Positions 28,841-35,994 of a stretch of DNA of 36,008 nucleotides are shown here, piece by piece. Under the pieces are notes generated by a model. It was not told where the DNA came from. It did not search any database and saw only the letters and a program-made list of their open reading frames with translations. How positions within the stretch are numbered: the stretch's first letter is position 1; each line of letters opens with the position of its first letter. Location of the stretch: NCBI GenBank assembly GCA_017539645.1, contig JAFYCM010000062.1:1-36008 (forward strand), in the 5' to 3' direction. Origin of the DNA: Bacteroidales bacterium. Its GTDB lineage: Bacteria; Bacteroidota; Bacteroidia; Bacteroidales; Marinilabiliaceae. Made by a program: the position numbers and the translations under genes.

Positions 28841-28848
28841 TACTTTTG
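28841..28848 (+). promoter_or_regulatory. -7 box for the hsd operon
   Basis: TACTTTTG matches TAnnTTTG exactly, 21 nt before ATG 28870. It overlaps the in-frame TTG at 28846, which argues that translation begins at 28870. Confidence 0.5.
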
Positions 28849-28869: not shown

Positions 28870-30363
28870 ATGATTACAGGCGAGATTAAGAATCAAATCG
28901 ACTCGATTTGGGATGCCTTCTGGACGGGCGGCATTACCAATTCCATTACCATATTGGAGCAGATGACATATCTCTTCTTCATGAAGATGCTCGACGATGC
29001 GCAAACCACCAAGGAGGCCAACGCAAGCATTATGGGCGTGGCGGTGAAAGAGCCCACTTTCAAAGATGGCGCGTGGCACAACCCCGACACCGACCGCGAC
29101 GTGCCTTACAGCAGCCTTCGGTGGAATACTTTCAAGAATATGGAAGCCGAACAGATGTTCCGCACAATCAGCAAAGATGTGTTTGTCTTCATAAAGAACC
29201 TTAACAGTGGACGCGAATCGGCATACAGCAAGTTTATGGCCAACGCCACATTCCTTATACAAAGCCCGCGCACGCTGGTGAAGATTGTGGAAGGCATTGA
29301 CCACCTTGATATGAACAACCGCGACACAATGGGCGACGTCTATGAGTATGTGTTGGGAAAGATGGCCGCTTCGGGCAATAACGGACAGTTCCGCACGCCA
29401 AGGCACATTATACGTATGATGGTGGATATTATGCAACCCACACTGAAAGACACCATTTGCGACCCTGCGATGGGTAGCGCGGGTTTCATTGTAGAGTCGG
29501 CGAAATATGTGCAGAACCACTACAAGAGCGAACTGCTGAAGAAAGAGAACGCCGAGCACTACAAAAACGGTATGCTGCATGGCTTCGACACCGACGCCAC
29601 TATGTTGCGCATTGGCGCTATGAACCTGATGCTGCACGGCGTTGACAACCCTGACATTCAGTATCAGGACAGCCTTTCGACCGACAACACCGACGCCGAC
29701 CGATACACTCTCTGTCTTGCCAATCCGCCCTTCACGGGAAGTCTCGACAACGAAGCGGTGAGCAAGAACCTGCTGGCCATTACCAAGACCAAAAAGACCG
29801 AACTGCTCTTTCTGGCCCTGTTTGTGCGTATGCTGCAGATTGGCGGCCGCTGTGCAAGCATTGTGCCCGACGGCGTTTTGTTCGGCAACAGCACGGGGCA
29901 CAAATCCATTCGCAAGGAGTTGATTGACAACCAACGCCTGCAAGCCGTCATTTCGATGCCTTCGGGCGTGTTCAAGCCATACGCGGGTGTATCGACCGCC
30001 ATTCTTGTCTTCACCAAGACCAACGCTGGCGGCACCGACAAGGTGTGGTTCTACGATATGAAAGCCGACGGCTTCAGTCTCGACGACAAGCGCTCGCCCG
30101 TTGCCGAAAACGACATTCCCGACGTGGTGGCTCGCTTCCATAACCTTGCCGCCGAAGAGAGCCGCACGCGCAAAGAGCAGAGTTTCCTTGTGCCTGTCGA
30201 TGAAATTCGCGCCAACGACTACGACCTGTCCATAAATAAATACAAGGAAGTGGAGAAGGTGAAGGTGGAATACGAAGCGCCCGAGGTGGTGCTTGGCCGA
30301 ATTGAGGCGTTGCAGGGCGAGATAACGGCGGCCATAAAAGAGTTCAAAGAGCAATTTCTATAA
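28870..30363 (+). CDS. hsdM: Type I restriction-modification system, DNA methyltransferase subunit
   Basis: A 497-residue N6-adenine methyltransferase subunit. The HsdM N-terminal helical domain (about 5-130, with FWTGGITNSITILEQMTYLFFMKMLDD) is followed by the SAM-binding fold: VYEYVLGKMAA, GQFRTPRHIIRMM, motif I DPAMGSAGF (198-206) and catalytic motif IV LANPPFTGS (NPPF at 285-288). The C-terminal helix (AALQ-like: VLGRIEALQGEITAAIKEF) would contact HsdS. With two M and one S subunit it methylates the target set by HsdS; with HsdR it forms the restriction complex. First gene of the operon; base composition is visibly more GC-rich than the flanking GH20 region. Confidence 0.96.
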   Translation: MITGEIKNQIDSIWDAFWTGGITNSITILEQMTYLFFMKMLDDAQTTKEANASIMGVAVKEPTFKDGAWHNPDTDRDVPYSSLRWNTFKNMEAEQMFRTISKDVFVFIKNLNSGRESAYSKFMANATFLIQSPRTLVKIVEGIDHLDMNNRDTMGDVYEYVLGKMAASGNNGQFRTPRHIIRMMVDIMQPTLKDTICDPAMGSAGFIVESAKYVQNHYKSELLKKENAEHYKNGMLHGFDTDATMLRIGAMNLMLHGVDNPDIQYQDSLSTDNTDADRYTLCLANPPFTGSLDNEAVSKNLLAITKTKKTELLFLALFVRMLQIGGRCASIVPDGVLFGNSTGHKSIRKELIDNQRLQAVISMPSGVFKPYAGVSTAILVFTKTNAGGTDKVWFYDMKADGFSLDDKRSPVAENDIPDVVARFHNLAAEESRTRKEQSFLVPVDEIRANDYDLSINKYKEVEKVKVEYEAPEVVLGRIEALQGEITAAIKEFKEQFL

Positions 30364-30377
30364 GCAAAGGCACAAAT

Positions 30378-31532
30378 ATGGTTACCGCTTCCTATCGACC
30401 GCGAAACCCTGGCCACGACTACTACGGCAAAGGCACCTATCTTATCACACTGGTGGTGAACGGGCGCGAGCCATTGCTTGGCCGTTTAGCAGGCGATGCC
30501 GCCCACCCCGACGTGCAACTGTCGCCTTTGGGAAAGGTGGTGAGCGAAAAGTGGGGCCGCATACCGCAGTTGCAAGCCAAACACGGCAACCGTGTGGCAG
30601 TGCACGCCTGCGTCTGTATGCCCGACCACTTTCACGGCGTGATAGAAGTGCTGGAGCCTATGCAATGGTGCCTGGGCGATATAATGCAGGCGTTTAAGTC
30701 GGCCTGCACAAGTTGGTGGCAGCAGGCGCAGGGGCTGGGTGCGTCTGTAAATCGACCGATATTGGTCGATTGCCACGGCCCGAATGCCCCCGCTTGGCTG
30801 CGAGAAAAAGCAAAGCGCTTTCAGGACGAGGGCTCACTTGTTAACAACCTTTCCAAAAAGCAGCGACAAGAATACTACACCCTTGTGGGCCGCGAGCACA
30901 GGCCGCTGTTCGACGACAACTACGACGACACCGTGTGCCTTGACGAGCGCCACCGACAGGCGATGATTGCCTACGTGCACGACAACCCGCGCCGCGCCAT
31001 TCTGCGACGCACGCTGCCCGATGTGATGCGCCGATGCCTGCACGTGCAGATTGGCAACCGCACCTTCGGCACCTTTGGCAACCTTTTCCTGCTGCGATGG
31101 GCCAACCGACTGCAGGTGCAGTGCCACCGACGACACCCCGACTCTGGCCTGCCCTTCGAAACCACACCCGACTACGCACGACTGCACGACGCCTGGGTTG
31201 CCGCCATTTTGGGCGGCGCCACCGTGATTGTAACACCTGGTGTCTCGCGCGGCGAACTGCTGATGAAAAACGAGTGCCTTGAACGCGGCTTCCCGCTCAT
31301 TCACCTGCAGAAAGAACCCATTGGACCCTTCTGGAAACCCGAGCAACGCCGCTTCGACGCCTGCGCCGCGGGAAGCCTGCTCATTCTCGCACCCTGGCAA
31401 CTCGACGATATGCAGCCCGTGAACAACGTGCCCGCCGACACCAACTACAGCCGTTTCCACAACCTGAACGCACTCGCCAATGAAATCTGCAACTTCTGCG
31501 GAAACGCCAAAATTTTATCTACTTTGCATTGA
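30378..31532 (+). CDS. Y1/HUH (RAYT-like) nuclease fused to a DprA/LOG-like domain, inside the type I R-M operon
   Basis: A 384-residue protein. Residues 1-212 match the Y1 transposase domain of REP-associated tyrosine transposases: NPGHDYYGKGTYLITLVV at the start, the HUH metal site MPDHFHGVIEV (His84, His86), and the helix AMIAYVHDNPRRAILRR carrying the candidate nucleophile Tyr199. Residues about 265-370 form a second domain, ILGGATVIVTPGVSRGE then ECLERGFPLIHL, and FDACAAGSLLILAPW (326-340). Its strand-turn-helix-strand order and S-R-G-E turn resemble the SGxARGxD segment of DprA/LOG (SLOG) folds. The domain assignment is inference. It starts 14 bp after hsdM and ends 10 bp before hsdS, in the same direction, with no terminal repeats. 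It is therefore probably a functional operon member acting on single-stranded or modified DNA, or sensing a nucleotide signal. A resident transposase is the alternative. Confidence 0.75.
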   Translation: MVTASYRPRNPGHDYYGKGTYLITLVVNGREPLLGRLAGDAAHPDVQLSPLGKVVSEKWGRIPQLQAKHGNRVAVHACVCMPDHFHGVIEVLEPMQWCLGDIMQAFKSACTSWWQQAQGLGASVNRPILVDCHGPNAPAWLREKAKRFQDEGSLVNNLSKKQRQEYYTLVGREHRPLFDDNYDDTVCLDERHRQAMIAYVHDNPRRAILRRTLPDVMRRCLHVQIGNRTFGTFGNLFLLRWANRLQVQCHRRHPDSGLPFETTPDYARLHDAWVAAILGGATVIVTPGVSRGELLMKNECLERGFPLIHLQKEPIGPFWKPEQRRFDACAAGSLLILAPWQLDDMQPVNNVPADTNYSRFHNLNALANEICNFCGNAKILSTLH

Positions 31533-31542
31533 TGTTTATACT

Positions 31543-32667
31543 ATGAATCATAACTGGACATATAAGAAACTTGGAGAGGTTTGCGATGTTTTGGATAGCA
31601 AACGCAAACCCATTACCAAATGCGACCGCCAATCAGGCAACATTCCATATTATGGAGCAACAGGCATACAAGATTATGTGAAAGATTACATTTTTGATGG
31701 TCGCTATCTTCTTGTTGGTGAGGATGGTGCAAAATGGGGAAAGAACGACAATACAGCATACATAATTGAAGGGAAATCGTGGGTTAATAACCACGCTCAC
31801 ATTCTAAAAATGCACGATGATGCAATTGATGCCTATGTAAGATATTTTCTAAACGGGAAAGACCTAAACTGTTATATAACAGGAGCAATTGTTCAAAAAC
31901 TTACGCAAGCAGCATTGGTAAATATCCCCATTCCCCTTCCCCCGCTCGAAACCCAATCCCGCATTGTGGCCGAACTCGACCTGCTGCAAGCCATTATCGA
32001 CAAGCAGAAAGCACAACTCGCCGAACTCGACAACCTTGCCCAATGTATTTTCTACGATATGTTCGGCGACCCTGTCGAAAATGATAAGGGCTGGGAGGTG
32101 AAGAAGTTGTGGGAAATTGTTTCAGAAGACTGCCCAATTTCCTATGGCATTGTTCAACCTGGAGACGGTGTAGATAACGGCATTCCTGTGGTTAGGCCTG
32201 TGGATATGACACACACATTTGTATATCGCCAAGGTCTAAAGCAAACCACAAAAGAAATATCCAATTCATACAAAAGAACAATATTGAAAGGAAATGAGAT
32301 TTTGTTATGCGTGCGAGGTACAACAGGATTGGTGTCATTGGCTACCGATGAACTAAAAGGGTGTAATGTTACTCGTGGTGTGACACCAATAGAATGCAAT
32401 GTTCAAAATGACCGTTGGTTCGTGTATTTCCAATTCTTGACAAATGCCGTACAACAACATATTGCTGAATACACAAAAGGAATTGCACTCAAACAAATAA
32501 ATATGAAAGATGTGAGAGAAATACCATTCATAGTTCCCCCACTATCCCTTCAGCAATCGTTCGCCGCGAAAATCGAATCGATAGAAAAACAAAAAGCAGC
32601 CATAAGCAAGAGCATAGCGGAAACGGAGAAGTTGTTTGAATATTCGATGGATAAATATATTGGGTAA
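31543..32667 (+). CDS. hsdS: Type I restriction-modification system, specificity subunit
   Basis: A 374-residue HsdS with two target-recognition domains. TRD1 spans about 5-140 (WTYKKLGEVCDVLDSKRKPI to TQAALVNIPIPLPPLETQ), then the first conserved helix (RIVAELDLLQAIIDKQKAQL), TRD2 about 190-335 (WEVKKLWEIVSEDC to MKDVREIPFIVPPLSLQQ), and the second helix (AAKIESIEKQKAAISKSIAE). The two halves mirror each other, as expected for a bipartite target. TRD-coding parts are AT-rich compared with hsdM and hsdR, consistent with TRD exchange. The frame extends 21 codons upstream inside the preceding gene; ATG 31543 fits the family start. No inverted half-gene copies are nearby, so phase-variable shuffling is not indicated. 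Confidence 0.94.
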   Translation: MNHNWTYKKLGEVCDVLDSKRKPITKCDRQSGNIPYYGATGIQDYVKDYIFDGRYLLVGEDGAKWGKNDNTAYIIEGKSWVNNHAHILKMHDDAIDAYVRYFLNGKDLNCYITGAIVQKLTQAALVNIPIPLPPLETQSRIVAELDLLQAIIDKQKAQLAELDNLAQCIFYDMFGDPVENDKGWEVKKLWEIVSEDCPISYGIVQPGDGVDNGIPVVRPVDMTHTFVYRQGLKQTTKEISNSYKRTILKGNEILLCVRGTTGLVSLATDELKGCNVTRGVTPIECNVQNDRWFVYFQFLTNAVQQHIAEYTKGIALKQINMKDVREIPFIVPPLSLQQSFAAKIESIEKQKAAISKSIAETEKLFEYSMDKYIG

Positions 32668-32679
32668 TTTTGGATAGTT

Positions 32680-35600
32680 ATGCGCAACTTCGACTACATA
32701 AAAGACCTTGGACTGACCGACCTCTACCGCTACTGTTCGGCGGCCGAGGAGCACCAAGTGGCCGATCCCGAATATTCAGCTGTGAATGCACGGCGCGCGT
32801 TGGAATACATAGTGCGTGCATTGTATTATATGAAAAACGTGGCAGTGCCCGAGCGCGCGTCGCTCTTCGAATTGGTGGATGGCGAGCCGTTCAAGAGTTT
32901 CATTGCCGACGACCGCGTGATGATGGCCGTGCACTATGTGCGCAAGGTGGGCAACTTAGGCGCGCACACGGGCAGCGTGTCGAAGAAAGAGTCGTTTTTT
33001 GCATTGCTAAATATATACAATGTGGTGGGCGCTATATTGCTGAAGCTGAAAGTGGTGCCCGAGGTGCGCCCGTTCGACAGCACGCTCATACCCAGCGCAG
33101 GTGCTAAACACACGTCGGTAGTGCCAACGCCCGTTGAGGTTAAGCCTACAGACGTAATAGTAACTACACCCGAACCATCGGCCATAGAGTCGTTAGCTCC
33201 CGTAGCCGAACTGCCCATCGACATCAGCGAAGCCGAGACGCGCCGCCTCTTCATCGACCTCATGTTGCGCGAGGCTGGCTGGCAGGTGCTCGAAACCGAA
33301 GGATTTGTGCAGCCGCTCAAAGCTTGCATTGAGGTCGAAGTCAGCGGAATGCCCAACGACGAAGGCGTAGGCTACGCCGATTACGTTCTTTTCGGCGGCA
33401 ACGGAATGCCGCTTGCCGTGGTCGAGGCCAAGCGCACAAGCGTGTCGCCCATCAAAGGCAAACATCAGGCGGAACTCTACGCCGACTGTTTTGAGCATAA
33501 GTATGGCGTGCGCCCCGTGATATACTACACCAACGGATTTGAAACCTATATTATCGACGGCCTTGGCTATCCGCCACGTCGCCTCTATGGATTTCATACG
33601 GCAAGCGACCTCGAACTCATCATTCAGCAGCGCAGCCGCCACGACATCACCGACTTTGCGGTGAAAGAGAGCATTACCGACCGCCACTATCAGAAGATGG
33701 CCATAAAAGCCGTGTGCGAGCACTACAACGCTAAGCATCGTCGTGGACTCCTGGTCATGGCCACTGGCACTGGCAAAACGCGCGTATCCATATCGTTTGT
33801 TGACGTACTTATGCGCAACGGATGGGTGAAGAACGTGCTCTTCCTTGCCGATCGTACCAGCCTCGTGACGCAAGCGCATAAGAACTTTGTGAAACTTATG
33901 CCCAGCACCACCACCTGCGTGCTCAACGATAGCAACGCCGACCACGACATCAATGCCCGCATCATCTTCTCTACATATCAGACGATGATAAACTACATCG
34001 ACACCGACGAGAAACGCTTCTCCGTTGGTCGGTTCGACTTGATAATCATCGACGAAGCGCACCGCAGCATCTTTGGTAAGTATGGCGCCATATTCAACTA
34101 CTTCGACTCGCTTATGCTTGGCCTCACCGCTACGCCGCGCAACGAGGTGGATAAGAGTACGTACGACATATTCGAGATGGAACAAGGCGCGCCTAACTAT
34201 GCCTACGAACTCGAAGACGCTGTGGCCGATGGCTTCTTGGTGAACTATCGAGGCTTCAAATGCGGTTCGCTCATACTGAAGGAGGGCATAAAATACAGCG
34301 CCCTTAGCCCAGAAGAGAGGGAACAGATGGAGGCCGTTTGGGAATATGAAAAGACCCGCAAAGCCCTCGATTCGGCCGACGACTACCATCGCGACATAGA
34401 GAGCAGCGAAATCTTCAAGTACATATTCAACATAAGTACTATCGACAATGTGCTGCAAGATCTTATGGCGCGAGGTCTAAAGGTGCAGAGCGGCGAACGC
34501 ATAGGCAAAAGCATCGTCTTCGCCTACAACCACCGTCACGCCGAGCTTATAGTGGAGCGCTTCAATACGCTGTTTCCCGAATATGGCGCGGGATTCTGTG
34601 TGCTTATAGATAATTATGTTACGTATGCGCAAGACCTTATCGACAAATTTGAGGTCCGCGACGCCGAACCGCAGATAGCCGTTTCGGTAGATATGCTCGA
34701 CACGGGCATTGACGTGCCCGATGTGCTGAATTTGGTGTTCTTCAAGATAGTGAAGAGCAAAATAAAGTTCATGCAGATGATAGGTCGCGGCACACGCTTG
34801 AGCCCGAATATCTATGGTGCAGGTGGCGACAAGAAAGAGTTCTACATATTCGATTGGTGCCGCAATTTTGAATATTTCGAGAAGAATGCCGATGGCAAGG
34901 CTGTGCCACAAGCGCCATCGCTCACCGAGCGCATCTTTGGTCTACGCACCGATATTGCTTTCCATCTGCAACATCAGCAATATCAAGAAGATGCCTATTG
35001 CAAAGCGTTGCACGATGAACTAAAATCGCTCTTGCACGACCAAGTGTGCGCACTTTCCGATAGCCACATCTCCGTGCGTGCCATGTGGGAGCAGGTGAGC
35101 CATTTCAAAGCCGCCGAAGCGTGGACATACATATCGGATGTTGACGTCTTGTCGCTCAAGACCGACATTGCGCCGCTGCTGCCCAAAAGCACCTACGACG
35201 AGAATGCCAAGAAATTCGATGTACTTATGCTATGCATAGAGCTCAGCCTCGTTGCCGACGATGTGAACGCATCGCGTAGCGAAAAAAGTGTGCGCCTCCT
35301 TGCAGAGAAGCTGCAAGAGAAAGCCTCCATTCCGCAAGTGCAAGCAAAGATGGAGACCATAGTGGAAGTGCTCAATCCTGCGTCGTGGGAGAATGTCACA
35401 TTGTCATGGCTCGAGAAGGTCCGCCTCGACTTGCGCGACCTAATAAAATTCCTTGTCGGTTCAGATAAATGGTTCAAAGTAGATATTGAGGATACCATCT
35501 CGTACGATGGCGAGAGCGAAGGCGTGCAGATGCGCGTGAGCTACAAGCAGCGCATTATGGATTTCTTGGCTGCCCACCGCCATCTGCCCGTGTTGGATAA

Positions 35601-35994
35601 AATATATAATATCGAACAACTCACCTCGGCCGATGTGTGCGAATTGGAGCGCATCTTATGGCAAGAGTTGGGCAATAGAGAAGAGTACGACAAATACACA
35701 AGTGGAAAGATGTGCGGCTCCAACGTGGCAATGTTCATCCGTTCGATGATAGGCGTCGACCGCAAGAAAGCCATGCAGCGCTTCAGCGAATTTCTGTCGG
35801 ACACAAAACTTAACGCCGAACAAGAAGAGTTCTTGAGCACCATAATTACTTACGTCTGCGAAAATGGTGACATCACCAAAGAGATTATTGTCAACGAGTC
35901 GCCCTTCGACGAGCAGTTAGACATTTTTCAAGCCTATATGATGCCTTTGGCTAAATATGTAGAAAACATACACGGCGTGGTGTCGGTGGGGTAG
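32680..35994 (+). CDS. hsdR: Type I restriction-modification system, endonuclease/translocase subunit
   Basis: A 1104-residue HsdR that translocates and cuts unmodified DNA. Residues about 1-130 form a DUF4145-like helical domain (RRALEYIVRALYYM, VHYVRKVGNLGAHTG). A linker rich in Pro, Thr and Val (135-180) follows. The PD-(D/E)XK nuclease is at about 185-300, with ADYVLFGGNG (Asp234) and AVVEAKRT (Glu249, Lys251). The SF2 motor has Walker A MATGTGKTR (360-368), IIIDEAHRS (DEAH 458-461), GLTATP (481-486), DMLDTGIDVPDVLN and MIGRGTRLS. A C-terminal helical region (about 840-1104) should dock on HsdM/HsdS. The architecture is that of the EcoEI-like (type IB) group. The stop codon lies 14 bp before the window end, so the gene is complete. 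Confidence 0.96.
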   Translation: MRNFDYIKDLGLTDLYRYCSAAEEHQVADPEYSAVNARRALEYIVRALYYMKNVAVPERASLFELVDGEPFKSFIADDRVMMAVHYVRKVGNLGAHTGSVSKKESFFALLNIYNVVGAILLKLKVVPEVRPFDSTLIPSAGAKHTSVVPTPVEVKPTDVIVTTPEPSAIESLAPVAELPIDISEAETRRLFIDLMLREAGWQVLETEGFVQPLKACIEVEVSGMPNDEGVGYADYVLFGGNGMPLAVVEAKRTSVSPIKGKHQAELYADCFEHKYGVRPVIYYTNGFETYIIDGLGYPPRRLYGFHTASDLELIIQQRSRHDITDFAVKESITDRHYQKMAIKAVCEHYNAKHRRGLLVMATGTGKTRVSISFVDVLMRNGWVKNVLFLADRTSLVTQAHKNFVKLMPSTTTCVLNDSNADHDINARIIFSTYQTMINYIDTDEKRFSVGRFDLIIIDEAHRSIFGKYGAIFNYFDSLMLGLTATPRNEVDKSTYDIFEMEQGAPNYAYELEDAVADGFLVNYRGFKCGSLILKEGIKYSALSPEEREQMEAVWEYEKTRKALDSADDYHRDIESSEIFKYIFNISTIDNVLQDLMARGLKVQSGERIGKSIVFAYNHRHAELIVERFNTLFPEYGAGFCVLIDNYVTYAQDLIDKFEVRDAEPQIAVSVDMLDTGIDVPDVLNLVFFKIVKSKIKFMQMIGRGTRLSPNIYGAGGDKKEFYIFDWCRNFEYFEKNADGKAVPQAPSLTERIFGLRTDIAFHLQHQQYQEDAYCKALHDELKSLLHDQVCALSDSHISVRAMWEQVSHFKAAEAWTYISDVDVLSLKTDIAPLLPKSTYDENAKKFDVLMLCIELSLVADDVNASRSEKSVRLLAEKLQEKASIPQVQAKMETIVEVLNPASWENVTLSWLEKVRLDLRDLIKFLVGSDKWFKVDIEDTISYDGESEGVQMRVSYKQRIMDFLAAHRHLPVLDKIYNIEQLTSADVCELERILWQELGNREEYDKYTSGKMCGSNVAMFIRSMIGVDRKKAMQRFSEFLSDTKLNAEQEEFLSTIITYVCENGDITKEIIVNESPFDEQLDIFQAYMMPLAKYVENIHGVVSVG

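Follow-up and report, generated by a model that had tools for sequence, protein, structure and literature searches.

A gene for a putative HUH nuclease lies between hsdM and hsdS of a type I restriction-modification (R-M) operon in a 36,008-nucleotide stretch of a Bacteroidales genome (Marinilabiliaceae; contig JAFYCM010000062.1; hereafter the window), which raises the question of whether this gene is a part of the restriction machinery or a guest within it. The gene (30378..31532, + strand) encodes a 384-residue HUH/Tyr protein and is the second of four co-directional genes on the + strand, hsdM, the HUH gene, hsdS, and hsdR, separated by gaps of 14, 10, and 12 bp. The explanation which we favor, and to which we give an even chance, is that the protein is a domesticated nuclease similar to the REP-associated tyrosine transposases (RAYTs; REP, repetitive extragenic palindrome), acting in cis on a hairpin inside its own gene and residing in R-M loci as cargo, not as an obligate subunit. 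The HUH gene appears to be a long-standing, recurrent guest of restriction systems, and its membership in their machinery is unproven. The computational basis consists of the protein fold, the invariant presumed catalytic residues, purifying selection, and a covarying palindrome without a dispersed population, together with a long joint inheritance with the R-M operon, the recurrence of the gene next to several unrelated R-M modules, and its survival where R-M has been lost.

A one-genome-per-species scan confirmed 143 relatives, and the results rest on 80 of these which are full-length or nearly so. All 80 are from Bacteroidota metagenome assemblies, many of which are ruminant derived according to the assembly records. 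The window protein was aligned with 74 of the 80 relatives in 75 rows; L063, L084, L087, and L088 (in-frame stop) and L091 and L093 (short) were left out. The HUH motif His84-Phe85-His86 (30627..30635, + strand) and Tyr199 in YVHDNP (30972..30974, + strand), the presumed catalytic tyrosine, were invariant in all rows. Judged by these motifs, every row carries the HUH motif and the single Tyr in Y..NP that characterize RAYT/TnpA_REP (HUH-Y1) proteins. In the structure model, residues 5-241 fitted REP-associated and IS200-type transposases, as predicted for a Y1 transposase fold, and residues 218-373 (31029..31496, + strand) showed a DprA/SLOG-type, Rossmann-like fold with ShosA as the best-matching chain and Helicobacter pylori DprA as the next. 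The protein had no Pfam or PADLOC family match at E ≤ 0.1. Its matches to curated families stayed below the cut-offs, with 40.1 of 80 bits for REP_Tyr_transpos (NCBIfam NF047646) and 13.2 of 23 bits for Y1_Tnp, to which 67 of the 75 members matched at E ≤ 1. Motifs and structure model support an HUH/Y1 nuclease fused to a DprA-like fold, and the modeled DprA-type domain probably binds single-stranded DNA (ssDNA). Thus, several claims that a first-pass annotation had made from the DNA letters were borne out: gene coordinates and domain matches agreed with the closely spaced gene order and the expected R-M motifs, the His84, His86, and Tyr199 residues of a Y1 nuclease were conserved on a fitting fold, and the C-terminal DprA/SLOG-like part was recovered when the predicted structure was compared.

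The HUH gene contains a palindrome, AATCGACCGATATTGGTCGATT (30750..30771, + strand), which falls at roughly codons 125-132, after the HUH codons and before the Tyr codon. Across the 75 rows, the best placement gave about 9.4 of 11 pairs, compared with 5.6 when synonymous codons were redrawn, and the pairing profile over the scanned part of the gene peaked at residues 127-129 (9.4; mean, 5.15; s.d., 0.63; next, 6.65). Pairing was significant (p < 0.01) in all 10 R-M-embedded rows and in 44 of 65 other rows. Covariation was measured in 66 of 68 ungapped rows (L038 and L092 were left out, and gapped rows such as L014 are absent), in which 89.5% of the cells paired and 30 cells had changed on both sides, compared with 6.0 in shuffles and 4 to 15 in slid controls. 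Some of the compensations altered the protein, such as SVD to SDD in L020 and SVD to SGD in L028. That a palindrome in the HUH gene is maintained by compensatory, sometimes protein-changing substitutions is a new observation. Because GT/TG (24) and AC/CA (27) mismatches were equally common among the 122 mismatches, the constraint appears to be on DNA and not on RNA; an RNA hairpin was rejected for want of a wobble bias.

The palindrome sequence occurred only at the HUH gene in its own genome, where no dispersed population was found with up to 3 mismatches. In the genomes of 37 of the 80 loci, the palindrome matched the genome's own HUH-gene site in 34, 30 of which had it there only, and G079 and G499 had no match. 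In neither the own genome nor these 37 others did we find the flanking or widely dispersed cognate REPs that would be expected of a RAYT. The gene itself is also low in copy number: among the genomes of 28 of the 80 loci, a close copy was single in 27, with two copies in G074, and distant paralogues with the same two-part make-up, about 28 to 46% identical, were frequent.

The ratio of nonsynonymous to synonymous divergence (dN/dS) of the HUH gene was 0.07 to 0.22 in the 10 pairs tried and 0.146 between the window and L014, indicating purifying selection. In 16 pairs overall, synonymous divergence (dS) was mostly alike for hsdM, HUH, and hsdR within the clade at the Der locus, with values of 0.41, 0.49, and 0.46 for L024-L025, 0.33, 0.31, and 0.42 for L016-L024, and 0.43, 0.53, and 0.46 for L035-L025, respectively. 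At the protein level, HUH changed faster than hsdM in the same pairs. Given purifying selection and a divergence broadly parallel to that of hsdM and hsdR, the HUH gene did not enter the operon recently, in agreement with the earlier argument from the close spacing. In the HUH tree, the R-M-embedded rows did not form one clade; the label required 7 changes, 4 of which were forced by well-supported branches. Most branches of a small hsdM tree were weak.

The gene neighborhoods showed that the arrangement recurs. The hsdM gene was directly upstream of HUH in 10 of 80 loci (L014, L016, L017, L019, L024, L025, L027, L035, L082, and L091), and hsdM upstream was combined with hsdS downstream in 9, in 4 of which other genes separate HUH and hsdS; in L019, the contig stops before hsdS could show. 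A separate search added a further hsdM-HUH case (G281/L096). The hsdM of L082 is 27% identical and represents another type I lineage, yet HUH occupies the same slot. In an index of 75 of the 80 loci, R-M-like genes (methyltransferase, specificity, and R/helicase profiles) were near HUH in 18. By position, they made up 12 of 72 genes at -1 and 9 of 73 at +1, compared with 0 of 145 at -5 to -8 and 1 of 86 at +6 to +9, counts that are non-independent because operons group genes. The same profiles matched none of 166 open reading frames (ORFs) in 20 regions containing 19 distant fusion paralogues, which are themselves included in the 166, and 1 of 313 ORFs in a sample of the own genome. Further R-M kinds were an Eco57I/TaqI_C-type enzyme 12 bp upstream of HUH (L062), type I-like modules (L057 and L088), and a cluster of PLD-helicase, Schlafen, and methyltransferase genes (L067, L076, and L084). 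Solitary copies were found in many loci, some of them beside the housekeeping genes for Der, S-adenosylmethionine synthetase, and transketolase.

The HUH gene persists after R-M loss, and R-M modules occur with other slot cargo or with an apparently broken HUH gene. HUH follows an hsdM reduced to its two ends in L022 (score, 51; control maximum, 31) and an hsdM tail in L018 (68 and 27, respectively). Read from the junctions, it lies directly behind the hsdM leader sequence in L026 and L028, and an R-M operon is further downstream in L026. At the Der locus, L029 and L030 carry HUH without R-M. In L020, HUH comes after hsdR, outside the hsdM-hsdS slot. Conversely, L095, with an hsdM 89% identical, has a different 240-residue gene in the slot, which had no Pfam match, and the slot gene of L098 is weakly similar to 23S_rRNA_IVP. 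In L097, L099, L101, and L104, hsdS adjoins hsdM, and HUH is absent from the stretch examined. L091 has kept hsdM, hsdS, and hsdR, and its HUH gene is apparently frameshifted, which may be an assembly error. The idea that an hsdM remnant precedes every solitary copy was rejected, as only L018 and L022 were clear among rows without an embedded hsdM. The sequences in L031 (43; control maximum, 27), L056 (43 and 31), L068 (34 and 28), L087 (33 and 26), and L045 (29 and 28) exceeded the control maximum and were judged by eye not to be hsdM.

In the favored explanation, the protein would be a low-copy, domesticated relative of RAYT/TnpA_REP in which an HUH/Tyr ssDNA nuclease is joined to a DprA-type domain, seated in the hsdM-hsdS slot. 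Its cognate DNA hairpin is probably the palindrome located between the HUH and Tyr codons; the protein may bind and nick this hairpin once the locus becomes single stranded, as on the lagging strand, and its DprA-type part may hold the ssDNA or pass it to recombination proteins. Because the hairpin lies within its own gene and would be nicked there, the effect of the protein would be in cis, through autoregulation of its locus or through stimulation of local recombination. The gene would ride in a permissive cargo slot, probably expressed from the hsdM promoter, and R-M and HUH would be linked partners which travel together and each work without the other. A bolder form, in which a RAYT-derived nickase with a DprA-like domain targets the hairpin in its own frame and drives recombination of the locus, with R-M genes as recurrent cargo, seems improbable to us. 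If true, such a self-nicking device, made up of one gene and one hairpin, would account for the swapping of R-M modules around a stable gene. This HUH group offers a simple test case for the host role of TnpA_REP-type proteins, with one protein, one hairpin, no dispersed REPs, and a recurrent genetic partner, and the covarying hairpin in the coding sequence is a defined candidate substrate. The recurrent association with R-M suggests that ssDNA processing and the turnover of defense genes are connected.

The HUH-DprA protein could instead work with the type I enzyme as an R-M-coupled accessory effector or a PrrC-like guard, which would cut ssDNA exposed by HsdR translocation, cover ssDNA invaders that R-M cannot cut, or sense R-M inhibition. 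We regard this as unlikely, while recognizing that operon co-inheritance, purifying selection, and occurrence beside unrelated kinds of R-M (the main type I lineage, L082, L062, L057/L088, and L067/L076/L084) argue for it. The best C-terminal fold match, ShosA, points in the same direction; we assign it to shosTA by its name. In shosTA, a DprA homologue acts as an antitoxin (PMC9122126). However, solitary open copies persist after R-M loss, which speaks against a toxin that depends on R-M for its restraint. Related hsdM genes without HUH in the stretch examined (L095, L097, L098, L099, L101, and L104) and the copy placed after hsdR in L020 also speak against a coupled effector. The recruited accessory subunit proposed in the first-pass annotation thus stands in part: the arrangement recurs in other genomes and with other R-M modules, and 9 of 80 loci with HUH between hsdM and hsdS are more than chance, whereas most other relatives are solitary, an obligate subunit is unsupported, and an accessory role is unproven. 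That annotation had named two outcomes which would tell against it. One of them, that homologues are mostly solitary, largely describes the relatives, because 57 of the 75 indexed loci have no methyltransferase-, specificity-, or R-like gene in the stretch around HUH, HUH is kept after hsdM loss, L095 has another gene in the slot, and the HUH gene of L091 is apparently broken. The other, a single-genome insertion, was rejected since the arrangement recurs in other genomes.

A neutral passenger, that is, a mobile RAYT-like gene landing in or tolerated by R-M operons and variable spots and functionless there, is quite improbable in our view. It would fit the solitary copies in many loci, including those with housekeeping neighbors, the presence of the gene with the same 5' leader at three chromosomal places in a Paludibacteraceae-containing clade, and the 5 apparently broken copies among the 80 (in-frame stops in L063, L084, L087, and L088 and the frameshift in L091). 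Such a passenger is difficult to reconcile with the low dN/dS, the motif residues, which did not vary across the 75 aligned rows, the single close copy in nearly all genomes searched, the old residence in the operon, and a clustering beside R-M that was not seen for the paralogues. The least probable alternative considered here is a homing-like device, whose enzyme would nick its own hairpin and whose DprA-type domain would feed ssDNA to RecA, so that the locus is copied or exchanged and the R-M genes are carried along. The hairpin inside the gene, a nuclease and a DprA-like fold in one protein, the variable R-M state around a stable HUH gene at the Der locus, and the deviating base composition of hsdS are consistent with it. 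The HUH dS was also below that of its neighbors in L024-L027 (0.11 versus 0.21 and 0.24), L025-L026 (0.26 versus 0.39 and 0.52), and window-L014 (1.05 versus 1.74 and 1.93, near saturation), although HUH dS equals that of the neighbors in most pairs of the Der-locus clade.

The reading of the gene as a cis-acting nuclease carried as cargo has its own difficulties. With the HUH dS lower in some pairs, L020-L024 among them, the history of HUH is not wholly that of the operon. Repeated linkage with several kinds of R-M is better explained by a functional tie to restriction than by guest status, and the R-M profiles were built from genes beside HUH, which introduces a bias. The nicking is inferred, and the DprA link of the C-terminal part had no sequence-profile support (hhalign probability of about 0.1 against a rough DprA set in which 10 of the 12 ORFs could be located, some of them doubtful). 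For the palindrome, 21 of 65 nonembedded rows fell short of p < 0.01, and the number of pairs with two-sided change (6), one of five covariation measures, was equaled by a +1 slide and by 7 of 500 shuffles. One extra palindrome-like site outside HUH-family ORFs was present in 5 of the 37 genomes (G071, G077, G095, G491, and G494), with 1 or 2 mismatches, and the sites of G491 and G494 are themselves palindromic. Because there is at most one such site per genome and in 5 of 37 genomes, there is no dispersed population, yet rare outside copies occur. The role of the hairpin is uncertain because typical RAYTs have dispersed REPs, and here there are none.

Among known systems, TnpA_REP/RAYT subclass 2.4 is reported from Bacteroidetes by Quentin et al. 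2018 (PMC6006769), and the REP-like palindrome between HUH and Y that is expected of this subclass is found in this gene. The table in that paper gives NH[IFV]H, YIxNNP, and 194 residues, compared with DHFH, YVHDNP, and 384 residues here. The protein described here has an extra DprA-type C-terminal domain of about 170 residues, its palindrome copies are not dispersed, and in a minority of genomes its gene is part of an R-M locus. The available main text of PMC6006769 contained no DprA-type domain or R-M link and used the word "restriction" 0 times, and among the literature matches listed, none described a RAYT or HUH gene within a type I R-M operon. TnpA_REP is termed a domesticated transposase (PMC8266576). 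The nuclease part resembles IS200/IS605 TnpA (IS608 and ISDra2) in fold, whereas a close copy here is single in 27 of 28 genomes; of a two-ended element, only flank repeats were looked for. Residues 218-373 are similar in fold to DprA and the DprA-like ShosA; here, this fold is fused to a nuclease, with no Pfam match and no profile-level similarity. PrrC of EcoprrI (PMC3874165 and PMC12707154) is likewise encoded by an additional gene embedded in a type I R-M operon, with which it works, and the proteins are unrelated. PrrC is a toxin held latent by the R-M enzyme, whereas HUH copies occur without an R-M gene in the stretch examined.

The surrounding operon includes all M, S, and R subunits of a type I R-M system with the expected Pfam and PADLOC domains. 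The hsdM gene (28870..30363, + strand; ATG at 28870) encodes the N6-adenine methyltransferase subunit (PF02384 N6_Mtase, 2.1e-67; PF12161 HsdM_N; PADLOC MTase_I), hsdS (31543..32667, + strand; ATG at 31543) encodes the specificity subunit with Methylase_S in two stretches, and hsdR (32680..35994, + strand) encodes the restriction subunit (ResIII, EcoEI_R_C, and HSDR_N; PADLOC REase_I). Upstream of hsdM lies TACTTTTG (28841..28848, + strand), the sole + strand match to TAnnTTTG between 28700 and 31700 and a putative promoter, as we take TAnnTTTG to be the Bacteroidetes promoter motif. GC contents at third codon positions were similar for hsdM (0.70), the HUH gene (0.71), and hsdR (0.65), with 0.39 for hsdS; the overall GC content was 0.45 in a 377-kb sample of the own genome (341 kb of other contigs plus the window). 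In seven loci, HUH is followed by a gene for an AAA_25 ATPase, either inside the R-M operon or next to it (L016:2582-3667, with the same cluster in L019, L024, L025, L026, L029, and L035). Another seven loci (L057, L064, L067, L071, L076, L084, and L088) have a gene for a GH92 glycosidase upstream of HUH, separated from it by 8 bp in six; the downstream genes of these loci vary and are R-M or defense-like in five.

Within the order, 27 of 393 genomes gave a family-profile match at E ≤ 1e-10, the own genome counted and some by the nuclease part only; in a phylum-wide draw, 2 of 296 genomes matched, one of which is the own genome. No HUH-family match was found in phages or plasmids, and none of 7 pattern matches in viral contigs was confirmed. 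The L028 copy had an in-frame stop at its very end in the genome search and is open in the 75-row alignment. A short sequence, AAATACCTGTA, precedes the Paludibacteraceae-type copies and may be an hsdM tail or a leader.

Different palindromes occupy roughly the equivalent position in many HUH paralogues, several of which also have them upstream of the gene, such as L165, L167, L168, L171, and L173. The palindrome GTTGCGTTGNCAACGCAAC was found in the gene of the HUH-DprA paralogues L157, L165, L167, L168, L169, L171, L172, and L173, most of which also have it before or near the start, and L157 has several copies in a row. Copies of the window-type palindrome outside HUH-family ORFs, at L188:1985 (G491:C364) and L189:1554 (G494:C6), are in other reading frames or genes. 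In a search of 98 loci for repeats on both HUH flanks, with controls up to 12 bp, the close group exceeded the controls in L032 (44), L044 (29), L047 (20), and L020 (16); L045 was a contig-end artifact. The 44-bp direct repeat of L032 (positions 7881 and 9188) brackets a solitary HUH gene, and an identical 29-bp hairpin-forming sequence stands on both flanks of the solitary gene of L044 (7927 and 9209), a REPtron-like layout within the close group. In the own-genome sample, a recurring hairpin with the stem GCAAGGCT is tied to a repeated 16-mer, CTAAAAGCAAGGCTCC (L139:16220, L146:6935, and L149:6709), and is similar to REPs or miniature inverted-repeat transposable elements. The most frequent 16-mers in the own-genome sample (L135-L154 and the window) belonged to a short tandem-like repeat with ACTGTAAATGATACTG (10 copies).

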